The notes under the pieces were generated by a model that was not told the origin of the DNA, did no database searches, and saw nothing but the letters and a program-made list of their open reading frames with translations. This document shows, one piece after another, positions 29,474 through 44,338 of a stretch of DNA of 44,338 nt (position 1 is the first letter of the stretch; each line of letters opens with the position of its first letter). Location of the stretch: positions 1 through 44,338 of IMG/VR virus record IMGVR_UViG_3300033997_000567; one strand, written 5' to 3'. The position numbers were made by a program, and so were the translations under genes. This DNA is from a virus.

Positions 29474-29571
29474 GCCAGCTCGACCAAGCCGTTGTGAGCC
29501 TGATTCGCCTCGGCCATCACCAGGCACTCGACTATCCATGGACGCTGTTCCAGCGCGCACTGAAAGGCTGA
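29171..29571 (+). CDS. tail assembly chaperone G-T frameshift product
   Basis: A -1 shift at the heptamer T TTT TTC (29425-29431) would leave the G frame after Phe87 and read 46 more codons (RDAGQAETPTGYFLSQLDQA ... YPWTLFQRALKG), ending with the TGA at 29569-29571, for about 133 aa. The downstream frame has no start codon of its own in a sensible place and ends 4 bases before the tape measure gene. This is the conserved G/GT arrangement of siphoviral tails. Confidence 0.8.
29425..29431 (+). other. slippery heptamer for programmed -1 frameshift
   Basis: T TTT TTC in the X XXY YYZ pattern, in phase with the G gene (GAT TTT TTC). Forty bases remain before the G stop codon, and the -1 frame continues into a T-type tail. 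Downstream stimulatory structure was not evaluated. Confidence 0.8.
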
Positions 29572-40295: not shown

Positions 40296-40635
40296 CTTAG
40301 TACTCTCGCGCGTGAACTCTGCCTACCAAGTAGAGTTTTCAGCGCTTGAGCAACAGTACCCGCGGGCCGAGCGCGAGGGCTGGACGCTCCAACTGCGGGA
40401 GGCCGACGCCTACGAGGCTGGCTCCGGGCCTACCCCCTGCCTCTCTGCGATGCTGGCGCAGCGCAACGAAGGGGCCGAGGTGCCGGAAACGATGCCCGAA
40501 CTGATCGGCAAGATTCGCGGCAAGTCGGACGCCTACGCGACCCTGTACGGCGCACTCACCGGCAAACGCCATCGCCTGGAGCGCGCCGCCCTGGCCGCTG
40601 AAACGCCGGAACAACTTGCACTGGTGGTGTGGTGA
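40264..40635 (+). CDS. putative tail fibre assembly protein (DUF4376-like)
   Basis: 123-aa protein starting MISISLASARDLVLSRVNSA. A helical part (FSALEQQYPRAEREGWTLQL) precedes the pattern ADAYEAGSGPTPCLSAMLAQ and IRGKSDAYATLYGALTGKRH, typical of DUF4376-type domains in fibre assembly proteins. GGGGGGCGGAA precedes the ATG at 40264. It would help the preceding fibre to fold or trimerise. Confidence 0.6.
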   Translation: MISISLASARDLVLSRVNSAYQVEFSALEQQYPRAEREGWTLQLREADAYEAGSGPTPCLSAMLAQRNEGAEVPETMPELIGKIRGKSDAYATLYGALTGKRHRLERAALAAETPEQLALVVW

Positions 40636-41570
40636 TGAACTCCAGAACCCTCGCGAAACTCACACCCCTAGCCGCGCTGCTCGGGCTGCCGACCGATACC
40701 AGCAAGCAGTACGCCTACCAGCCTGGTACCGGTTGGGTAGAGGTGCAGGCGACCGGTGAGGTGCTGCAGGGGCTGATCGACGGCCGCTGGAGAAACACCA
40801 CTACCCAACAGGACCTGTCGGCGTTTTCGCTGTCGGTGTTCTGCCCTTCTCCTGTGGCCGCTGCCATCACTACAGCGTTCTCTGGGTCGTTGGCGGAAGG
40901 GGCTGGCTGGATTGGCGCTACTAGCGGCACAGCTGGTGCTGGGATAACCCGCCCGACCGCTAACACCGACATGCTGCAACTAAACACTGGGACGATATCG
41001 AGCGGCCAGGCGAGCATTCGCTACGGGGTGGCGGAGCTGGTTTGGCCCGACGACAATGTTTTCACCCCGGCGACGGTCGAGCGGGCCCAACTCTCAGGTT
41101 TCGCCGCTCGGGTTGCCCTGTACTTGCCGGCTCTGAGCACATCTGCACAGGAATTTGTGGCTATGGCGGACTTCGGGCCGCAGGCGCACGCCTCCGTGTC
41201 TGCCCCGTCTAATATCGGCGCGATGACGTTGCTCTACCAGCGCACTGGCAGCGTCAACTGGCGCGTGCGTTATTGCGACACTAGCGGTGCCGTGAAGTAC
41301 CACGATACAGGGGTGGAGGTTAGCGCCGGCTCGGTGGTGAGAGCTTCTGTGAAGGCTACTAAGCAGCCCGACGGCTCATTTGTGGTCGACGTCGATGTAA
41401 ACGGTACAACGTCGAGCTTCAGCGACAGCTACCTCAACACCAGCACTTGGCAGAACGGTGCGGATATTTCCCGCCCCCTCTACCAGCCTTCGATCCGGCT
41501 CGAAAAAACTGTAGGGACTACGTCTGCAGCTCTGCAGGTGCGGCTGTTCGCCTTCGCGTTCAGCTACTAG
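40635..41570 (+). CDS. putative receptor-binding / fibre-associated protein
   Basis: 311-aa protein; the ATG at 40635 overlaps the preceding TGA. After a short N-terminal part (QYAYQPGTGWVEVQATGEVL) the body is beta-rich with a lectin-like feel (ASIRYGVAELVWPDDNVFTP, FVAMADFGPQAHASVSAPSN, GSFVVDVDVNGTTSSFSDSY), ending at RLFAFAFSY. Its position at the end of the tail module suggests host recognition. No family recognised. It meets the CsrA-like gene tail to tail with a 4-base overlap. Confidence 0.55.
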   Translation: MNSRTLAKLTPLAALLGLPTDTSKQYAYQPGTGWVEVQATGEVLQGLIDGRWRNTTTQQDLSAFSLSVFCPSPVAAAITTAFSGSLAEGAGWIGATSGTAGAGITRPTANTDMLQLNTGTISSGQASIRYGVAELVWPDDNVFTPATVERAQLSGFAARVALYLPALSTSAQEFVAMADFGPQAHASVSAPSNIGAMTLLYQRTGSVNWRVRYCDTSGAVKYHDTGVEVSAGSVVRASVKATKQPDGSFVVDVDVNGTTSSFSDSYLNTSTWQNGADISRPLYQPSIRLEKTVGTTSAALQVRLFAFAFSY

Positions 41571-41827
41571 CGCTCGCGCGGCTGGCCGTGCCACAGGCTG
41601 TAGTCCAGCCCAGGTTCCGCTTCTGGCTCATCCAGCCTAGTTGGAGGCCTGTTGATGCTCAGGCTTTTCGGCGCATCAATCCGAAGTCGGGCGCCGCCCC
41701 TGCTGTGCTCGATCAGGGTGATGGTGATGCCCTGCTGCAGCTCCTCGATGAGATCCGCCGGCTCTGTGCCTGGTCTGACCTCAATGCGAATCTGCTCTCC
41801 GGGTAGCCGTTTTACTGTGAGCCCCAT
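41567..41827 (-). CDS. CsrA/RsmA-like translational regulator
   Basis: 86-aa protein. The first 65 residues match the CsrA pattern: MGLTVKRLPGEQIRI, GITITLIEHSRGGARLRIDA, then PKSLSINR, corresponding to the APK-x-x-x-x-x-R signature. A 20-residue tail (LDEPEAEPGLDYSLWHGQ) exceeds the usual 61-65 aa. CsrA proteins bind GGA motifs in mRNA leaders. It is the only minus-strand gene among late genes, with GGAGG 8 bases before its ATG, so it probably has its own promoter and may act on host or phage messages. Confidence 0.75.
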   Translation of the reverse strand: MGLTVKRLPGEQIRIEVRPGTEPADLIEELQQGITITLIEHSRGGARLRIDAPKSLSINRPPTRLDEPEAEPGLDYSLWHGQPRER

Positions 41828-41976
41828 GGGTTACGCCTCCGTGCGTGAGTGGTGGCCAGAGCATAGACGCTCAGACTGAGCTACAACACCCCGCCACCCG
41901 CCTGGAGCTTGTTGCCCATAACCACCTCTCAACTTATGCCGGCGGATTGACCCCCGCCTGCCGCGCCAATTCAACC
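41828..41976. other. short intergenic region upstream of the csrA-like gene
   Basis: About 150 bases between divergent-transcribed csrA-like and lysozyme-like genes. On the minus strand TTGTAG and TATGCT with a 15-base spacer are weak promoter candidates for the CsrA-like gene. I see no gene here. Confidence 0.35.
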
Positions 41977-41999
41977 GCCCGCCTTGTGCGGGCTTTTTT
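41977..41999 (+). terminator. terminator between tail and lysis genes
   Basis: GCCCGC (41977-41982) and GCGGGC (41988-41993) with a 5-base loop, followed by TTTTTT. It ends rightward transcription or acts ahead of the lysis genes. Confidence 0.85.
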
Positions 42000-42014: not shown

Positions 42015-42530
42015 ATGACCCCAAGAGAAGCTCGCAACGGCCCGGTGGCCGAGGCGCTGTTGCTACTGCCCGCGAAGATGACCAGCCCGCAGGCCGAGCT
42101 GATGTTGCTGGCGATCGGTTTGCAGGAGTCCGAACTCAAGTACCGCCGTCAGCATGGCAATGGCCCGGCTCGCTCACTGTGGCAGGGGGAGCAGAGCGGC
42201 GGCATGGTCGCCGGCTTGCTCGGCTTCCATAACCAGGACGTGCAGGATCTGGCGCGCGGGCTGTGCGCCGTGCGTGGCGTACCGGCCCAGCCGCGTGCCG
42301 TCTGGAAAGCGATCGAGCACGACGACGTGCTGGCGGCCGGCCTCGCTCGACTGCTGCTGTACACCGACCCGGCCAGGCTGCCGGGGCTGGGTGACGAGGA
42401 GGGCGCCTGGCAGCTGTACCTGCGCACCTGGCGCCCCGGAGCCTTCACCCGCGGTACCGCCCCGAAGCGCGCCGAGCTGCGGCAGAAGTGGGCGAGGAAC
42501 TACGCCATGGCGCTGGAGGTGGTGCGGTGA
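42015..42530 (+). CDS. putative lysozyme-like lytic protein (endolysin candidate)
   Basis: 171-aa protein starting MTPREARNGPVAEALLLLPA behind GGAGG. The segment MLLAIGLQESELKYRRQHGN with a Glu in the position of the transglycosylase acid, then GPARSLWQGEQSGGM, resembles lysozyme-like phage proteins. It lies directly before the spanin pair, where endolysins sit. The fold is inferred from the Glu-containing helix and gene order. No signal peptide is visible, so release through holins is expected. Confidence 0.6.
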   Translation: MTPREARNGPVAEALLLLPAKMTSPQAELMLLAIGLQESELKYRRQHGNGPARSLWQGEQSGGMVAGLLGFHNQDVQDLARGLCAVRGVPAQPRAVWKAIEHDDVLAAGLARLLLYTDPARLPGLGDEEGAWQLYLRTWRPGAFTRGTAPKRAELRQKWARNYAMALEVVR

Positions 42531-43931: not shown

Positions 43932-44110
43932 CTCTGCCCGTACCAAGAAGACTGCGAACGTCTATTGAGGGGCCAAGCTTCACAGCATCCTGCAGGTGGT
44001 CGGGCGCCAGATGTGCATAGCGCATGGTCATCGCCAGTGAGGTATGCCCCAGGATTTTTTGCAGGGTAGGGCCTTGGCCAGTTCATCCAGAAGGCGACGG
44101 CGTGCTTCTG
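43915..44110 (-). pseudogene. C-terminal remnant of another tyrosine integrase
   Basis: On the minus strand TLQKILGHTSLAMTMRYAHL, then APDHLQDAVKLGPS, is the last part of a tyrosine recombinase, with GH and the nucleophilic Tyr. The region upstream (KHAVAFWMN in another frame) looks like the preceding HTFASHFMMN-type segment, with a frameshift of net 2 bases near 44070-44085. The rest of the gene is cut off at about 44110 by an insertion sequence. It is not related by sequence to the integrase at 1-975. Remnant of an element that occupied the neighbouring site. Confidence 0.65.
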
Positions 44111-44338
44111 TAGTGGTCTACTGATCCCGGACACCCATTTAGGGCGAGAATGCTCGCCATAGAGAGGTGTCTGATGACCAAGCAACGTCGTTCCTTTACG
44201 CCCGAGTTCAAACGAGAGACCGCCTGCCTGGTACTCGACCAAGGCTACAGCCATATCGAAGCCGCCCGTTCGCTTGGGCTGGTTGAGTCGGCCCTGCGCC
44301 GATGGGTAAACCAGCTCCAGAGGAGCGCCTGGGCGTGA
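44108..44338 (+). mobile_element. left end of an IS3-family insertion sequence (partial)
   Basis: The boundary with the integrase remnant is near 44108-44113, where TGTAGTGGTCTACTGATCC begins; IS3-family ends start with TG. The OrfA reading frame follows about 65 bases inside. The right end is outside the window, so length, target duplication and exact end cannot be determined. Confidence 0.6.
44174..44338 (+). CDS. IS3-family transposase OrfA, frameshifted, partial
   Basis: Begins MTKQRRSFTPEFKRETACLV and continues with DQGYSHIEAARSLGLVESAL and RRWVNQLQ, the helix-turn-helix and leucine-zipper start of IS3-type OrfA. At about 44316 the sequence CAGAGGAGCGCCTGGGCGTGA gives an early stop in this frame, but read one base offset it resumes the usual QSERLGV pattern, indicating a one-base deletion. 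The 54-aa frame ends at the window edge. Either the copy is inactive or there is a sequencing error. Confidence 0.7.
   Translation: MTKQRRSFTPEFKRETACLVLDQGYSHIEAARSLGLVESALRRWVNQLQRSAWA

Follow-up and report, generated by a model that had tools for sequence, protein, structure and literature searches.

Proteins of the CsrA/Rsm family cover GGA sites near the Shine-Dalgarno (SD) sequence and thereby lower translation, and they are titrated by the RsmX, RsmY, and RsmZ RNAs (PMC7366521). Self-repression by RsmA and RsmE, and repression of rsmF by RsmA, have been reported in Pseudomonas (PMC6715622). The conserved features named for RsmN are a helix insert, a Gly-Ile pair, Arg62, and an Arg8-Glu64 salt bridge, although this bridge also occurs in RsmA and is thus not specific to the subtype (PMC3791407).

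Several members of this family are carried by mobile elements. RsmM and other csrA alleles of Pseudomonas phages have been described together with proposed actions on the host (Sobrero and Valverde 2020, PMC7366521; Rey Campa 2021, PMC8450108), and the csrA entries of P. aeruginosa phages share 55 to 63% identity with Escherichia coli CsrA in alignments that cover 90% or more of the query. RsmQ of plasmid pQBR103, described as an rsmA/csrA homolog, has been shown to bind specific RNAs and to switch host behavior, and it demonstrates that an Rsm protein from a mobile element can rewire a Pseudomonas (PMC9928087). The CsrA protein of the Bcep22-like phage JC1 is a phage moron of 64 amino acids, encoded among the head genes on their strand, and one peptide gives tentative evidence of its presence in virions (PMC9144972). 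Furthermore, CRISPR-Cas in Serratia is repressed by RsmA, and a phage-encoded RsmA has been proposed as a possible anti-CRISPR (PMC8450108). In P. protegens, phage is restricted by activation of Gac/Rsm (PMC11888443). Both the occurrence of csrA genes in phages and the proposal that these act on host functions, CRISPR among them, are already published.

Here we describe a gene of this family in a virus record of 44,338 nucleotides (IMGVR_UViG_3300033997_000567), which was analyzed over its whole length and is called the window. Like the RsmM-type alleles, its product is a CsrA-family protein of a probable Pseudomonas phage, but it scores far below the cut-off for a csrA equivalog. Like RsmQ, it is an Rsm homolog on a mobile element, although it is prophage-borne rather than plasmid-borne. 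Like the JC1 gene, it is a moron, but it lies beside lysis genes on the opposite strand and encodes 86 amino acids.

In the 2020 survey, the alleles found in P. aeruginosa phages were classified as RsmM, and a single chromosomal rsmN gene was pointed out that lies close to an integrase and may belong to a genomic island (PMC7366521). The 2021 IMG/VR search was seeded with a Pfam model (PMC8450108) and may well have included sequences such as those reported here without distinguishing them. The literature searched, in which subscription journals were thinly covered, contained no report of RsmN-type phage proteins, and a phage family of this type with a conserved self-site appears to be unreported.

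A leftward gene between tail and lysis genes

Among the genes of the 44.3-kb record are those for an integrase, replication, a holin, a terminase, a portal, and a tape measure. The terminase shares up to 73% identity with terminases of P. aeruginosa phages, and an IS222/IS3-type transposase end lies at the right border of the record (44109-44338). Because of these two likenesses, the host of the prophage is very probably Pseudomonas.

The gene of interest (41567-41827, minus strand) is an intact ORF of 86 amino acids from ATG to stop, and both its position and the residues quoted for it in a first-pass annotation were borne out exactly by the translation. It has a ribosome binding site of its own, as that annotation had also stated, with a strong SD sequence (GGAGG) that ends 8 nt before the ATG. 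Its codon-position GC content (0.68/0.47/0.72) is that of coding DNA. By the same measure, the remaining leftward ORFs in the late region look like shadows of rightward genes, and therefore this is indeed the only coding-like leftward gene there. However, its earlier description as antisense to the late genes had to be rejected. The gene converges on a 313-aa gene of the tail region (40629-41570, plus strand; no family match), with which it shares a 4-bp overlap of stop codons, and the rest of its length fills the intergenic gap.

On its other side lies a divergent phrog_3108 gene (42036-42530, plus strand), annotated as lysozyme or endolysin in some records. An intrinsic-terminator-like hairpin with a T-run (41977-41999, plus strand) directly precedes the SD sequence of this lysis gene and is mostly kept in relatives, which points to antitermination during late transcription or to a leader that controls lysis.

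Relationship to RsmN/RsmF

The Pfam CsrA model (PF02599) matches all eight homologs identified in this study and finds the window protein with an E value of 9.4e-6 and 25.9 bits, 1.1 bits under the curated 27-bit cut-off. The NCBI csrA equivalog models reach the C-terminal half only, far under cut-off; with TIGR00202, the score is 16.6 bits against a cut-off of 70.1, over residues 32-60 only. Full-length similarity without an insertion, as expected of a canonical CsrA, was therefore not found. Among CsrA-family chains in the PDB, the best matches of the window protein are RsmF and RsmN. A family profile built from the eight homologs, window protein included, matches these two across the whole core (E values of 1.4e-7 and 1.7e-7), whereas it reaches other CsrA-family chains only from about strand 3 onward. 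The window protein is about 31% identical to RsmN/RsmF, and its alignment score with RsmN lies 7.7 standard deviations above shuffled sequences.

Structure prediction agrees with this placement. Our second AF2 model, a monomer of moderate confidence (pLDDT of 65.5) from a method whose training set includes RsmN structures, has the element order E2-7, E14-17, H23-31, E35-42, E45-51, and E56-59, which is that of RsmN. A Foldseek search with this model ranked four RsmN/RsmF entries first to fourth (probability 1.00; TM to target 0.78 to 0.82), and the next entry, at a probability of 0.16, is not credible. The top four were unchanged with a first model made from two sequences. The RsmN/RsmF subtype is marked by about 16 helical residues inserted between strands 2 and 3, and alignment and prediction both place an inserted helix at this point in the window protein. 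The codons of the predicted helical residues 23-31 lie at 41735-41761 (minus strand) and are followed by those of Gly33-Ile34, a pair that is invariant in all eight homologs.

The window protein thus shares with P. aeruginosa RsmN/RsmF (PDB 4kji, 4k59, and 4krw; PMC3791407) the inserted helix, the Gly-Ile pair, the equivalents of Arg62 and Arg8, the GGA-contact residues, and the predicted fold. It differs in being prophage-borne, in being one residue shorter after the helix, and in lacking the salt bridge: Arg7 is kept, but the position of Glu64 is Pro62. Proline occurs here in the window protein and its closest relative (L002), and glutamate in the six other homologs. These six also have a C terminus shorter than that of RsmA, as RsmN does, whereas the window protein and L002 carry a tail (26 residues after Arg60 in the window protein; residues 61-86 plus stop, 41567-41647, minus strand) for which no helix is predicted. 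The tail is under purifying selection in the comparison with L002 (pN 0.07, pS 0.39). The C-terminal extension noted in the first-pass annotation is thus real but local to these two proteins, and we rejected it as a family trait. Because these C termini are not truncated, we use the label "RsmN-type" rather than RsmN ortholog. The same annotation had called the product a CsrA homolog. Family membership is supported by Pfam, the family profile, and the shuffled alignments, but as judged from sequence and modeled structure, the protein is of the RsmN/RsmF subtype and not a canonical CsrA/RsmA.

The contacts of RsmN with the GG motif include Leu4, Leu6, Ala54, Val58, Ile60, and Arg62 (Morris et al. 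2013, PMC3791407), and the corresponding residues of the window protein are Leu3, Val5, Ala52, Leu56, Ile58, and Arg60. Aligned positions that are invariant across the family and RsmN (L3, R7, G10, L26, L30, G33, I34, A46, R47, P53, I58, and R60) account for most contacts in the RsmN-RsmZ complex (PMC3791407). Arg60 (codon at 41648-41650, minus strand), at the end of strand 5, aligns with Arg62 of RsmN, whose role is known from that work, and with Arg44 of RsmA and CsrA; it is present in all eight homologs. In contrast, the Leu59/Val61/Leu65 patch of RsmN is not kept (Ser57/Asn59/Thr63). Since the GG-contact equivalents are retained and Glu64 and the patch are changed, the essential RNA pocket appears to be preserved while peripheral features differ. 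The first-pass annotation had named missing key RNA-contact residues, together with a lack of RNA binding, as grounds against its reading, and nearly all residues that contact bases are in fact kept. The residues are compatible with a dimer that binds GGA in RNA hairpins, and a pocket resembling that of RsmN makes an active binder more likely than an inert mimic.

Distribution of homologs and moron status

Seven further homologs, 41 to 83% identical to the window protein, were found on eight contigs of related IMG/VR prophages. All eight genes are leftward and occupy a slot beside lysis genes. The closest relative, L002, is 83% identical with the same neighbors, and its 7, 6, and 27 differences from the window gene at first, second, and third codon positions fall mostly at the third. 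Together with the Pfam, profile, and shuffling results above, this excludes a chance resemblance. Regulator pairs that are at least 66% identical have dN/dS values of 0.14 to 0.35.

When the lysis gene was used as bait, nine contigs with a 90 to 96% identical lysis protein were recovered. Seven of these nine (lysis gene at least 90% identical) carry a leftward homolog at the same place; the two without it have unrelated genes at the slot (L014) or none (L021). An eighth contig, L030, has the regulator beside a different lysis gene. Regulators are 35 to 96% identical to one another, and between lineages they are only 35 to 55% identical while the lysis gene is nearly constant. At the slot of L014, a leftward 299-aa ORF (1965-2861) resembles its rightward 308-aa neighbor (716-1639), such that related genes face each other. 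The gene at L030:1-594 also lies beside phage lysis genes. We take it to be TrpG-like, which would place this prophage next to trpG. The trpG neighborhood is also used by pyocin clusters.

A codirectional 67-aa gene (MGNKLVRQ...) precedes the regulator in five contigs of the lysis set and in L030, and a 12-codon remnant of it (MGNKLQAGGGVL and a stop codon) persists in the window (41881-41919, minus strand). The encoded alanine-rich protein (L033-L039, and L030:2978-3187), usually upstream of the regulator, has no Pfam match. In L020, a HicB-like ORF without an evident HicA takes its place upstream of the regulator (between 2366 and 3001, minus strand). Locus L035 carries the 67-aa gene but lacks the regulator, and the stop codon of the 67-aa gene is directly followed there by the sequence that in L019 comes after the csrA stop codon. 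From this comparison, L035 is a natural clean empty site. Related phages therefore differ in whether they have the gene at this one site, where it runs against the strand of its neighbors. Because close relatives lack it, one of them with a clean empty site, we consider the regulator to be a moron.

Searches beyond these prophages gave little. A tblastn search with the window protein gave no match among 50,697 phage records or among 72,556 plasmid records, weak plasmid matches of the L002 homolog proved unrelated, and a single match in a bacterial genome (Herpetosiphon) was a chance match within a 901-aa protease-like ORF. With RsmN as the query, no match in viral sequences was confirmed; of the weak phage matches, some were already annotated as CsrA, one was a CsrA with another kind of insertion, and the rest were unrelated. 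Pseudomonas phage vsMR, an unannotated record, has a CsrA-family ORF (L005:2306-2635) with a mid-protein insertion unlike the RsmN helix.

A candidate Rsm site in the leader

The leader of the window gene contains CACGGAGG, a candidate Csr/Rsm site of the form CANGGANG that overlaps the SD sequence of the gene itself (41836-41843, minus strand). Pairing of CGC with GCG could enclose the site in a short hairpin (41834-41845). The motif CANGGANG lies within 45 nt of the ATG in all eight leaders, a count that is inflated by shared ancestry, and it occurs before 1 of the 162 other SD-preceded starts of the same DNA. In six leaders it covers the SD sequence as CGCANGGAGGCG, with variation at N alone (C, T, or A). 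In L019 and L022 it lies in a separate hairpin, GCCACGGAAGGTGGC, upstream of a weaker SD sequence, and this relocation into another hairpin, seen in the lineage that has diverged most, argues for selection on the motif. Among the six SD-overlapping leaders, those of L017 and L020 include the short GGA hairpin in their minimum-energy folds, and the other four, with that of the window among them, do not.

A -10-like element, TATGCT (41860-41865, minus strand), precedes the ATG by 32 nt and is conserved in all leaders (TACGCT in L019 and L022). The longer string CTATGCT/CTACGCT is kept while its flanks differ, consistent with a candidate promoter part; a consensus promoter scan found no promoter, and no clear -35 element was recognized. 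Rfam gave no RNA family match over the window and the seven other loci, and therefore no RsmX/Y/Z-like RNA was recognized in them.

Proposed function and alternatives

We propose that the moron encodes an RsmN/RsmF-type posttranscriptional repressor that is expressed in the lysogen, limits its own level, and joins the host Rsm pool, a reading to which we assign a probability of about 0.6. We infer its action on host RNAs from knowledge of the Rsm family, from RsmQ, and from the reports on Gac/Rsm-dependent defense and CRISPR. In the lysogen, while the late genes are silent, a promoter of its own would drive leftward transcription of the gene. The RsmN-like dimer would bind ANGGA hairpins, including the site in its own leader, and the resulting repression of its own translation would cap its level. 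It would also compete within the host Rsm pool for RsmY/Z-type RNAs and host mRNAs, which would bias the lysogen to an Rsm-repressed state with low Gac-activated secretion, biofilm, and phage-defense functions. Once the prophage is induced, rightward transcription of the late genes would cross the gene in the antisense direction and turn it down. By analogy with Rsm biology, the host Gac/Rsm network may thus be rewired.

The leader site might instead be read mainly by host RsmA or RsmE, such that the prophage gene senses Gac status, being off when RsmA is free and released when Gac activity is high. The presence of CANGGANG in every leader would suit such a sensor, as would the repression of rsmF translation by RsmA in P. 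aeruginosa (Marden 2013, as cited in PMC6715622). However, RsmA/E proteins also repress themselves, and the data here fit self-reading and host-reading equally. We hold this idea tentatively, at somewhat less than even odds, and it is compatible with the repressor moron proposed above.

A specific counter to host immunity, in which the protein represses Rsm-controlled defense genes (cas operons, BstA, and PARIS), seems unlikely as the dedicated role. It draws on the repression of Serratia CRISPR-Cas by RsmA and the suggested anti-CRISPR role of a phage RsmA (PMC8450108), as well as on the Gac/Rsm-driven phage defense of P. protegens (PMC11888443), but it is a special case of the proposed repressor.

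It is improbable that phage mRNAs are the main targets, with the timing of lysis or tail synthesis under control. The regulator does lie between tail and lysis genes, and CANGGANG occurs at 29537-29544, 32 to 39 nt before the tape-measure ORF as listed. The first-pass annotation had recommended a search for GGA-loop motifs in phage leaders, but we had to reject enrichment across the phage (26 occurrences of CANGGANG in the window versus 30.3 expected), and the notable motif is the one in the gene's own leader. Only the one other SD-preceded start has the motif, and close relatives show that the gene is optional.

Likewise, we give little credence to a decoy that leaves mRNA unrepressed and heterodimerizes with or displaces host Rsm proteins through mimicry or a dominant-negative effect: the divergent surface, altered C terminus, and missing Glu64 equivalent could suit it, but a protein-only decoy would not need an RNA pocket that is invariant across the family. 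Finally, the convergent orientation with overlapping stops and the remnant of the upstream gene could point to a transcript whose sole role is that of an antisense RNA against the tail-region gene, or to a gene in decay, but purifying selection on the protein core and tail and the conserved SD sequence make this highly improbable.

Implications for a possible prophage role in Gac/Rsm control

Earlier phage csrA genes have been known mainly as near-copies of host CsrA, whereas here an RsmN-fold family occupies a fixed moron slot and keeps an Rsm site in its leaders. A more ambitious version of the proposal, which we consider rather doubtful as a whole, is that Pseudomonas prophages keep a dedicated set of RsmN-fold riboregulators that diverges quickly while occupying one constant cargo site, and that each member is wired to its host by the leader GGA site. 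The prophage would then both read and push Gac/Rsm, lower Gac-dependent phage defense, and alter lysogen behavior, and the RsmN fold may have a history on mobile elements. The natural empty-site allele and a single arginine whose loss should abolish RNA binding provide clean controls. The locus thus offers a concrete, testable circuit for a prophage part in Gac/Rsm control, a network that controls secretion, the sessile way of life, and, according to recent work, phage defense in Pseudomonas.
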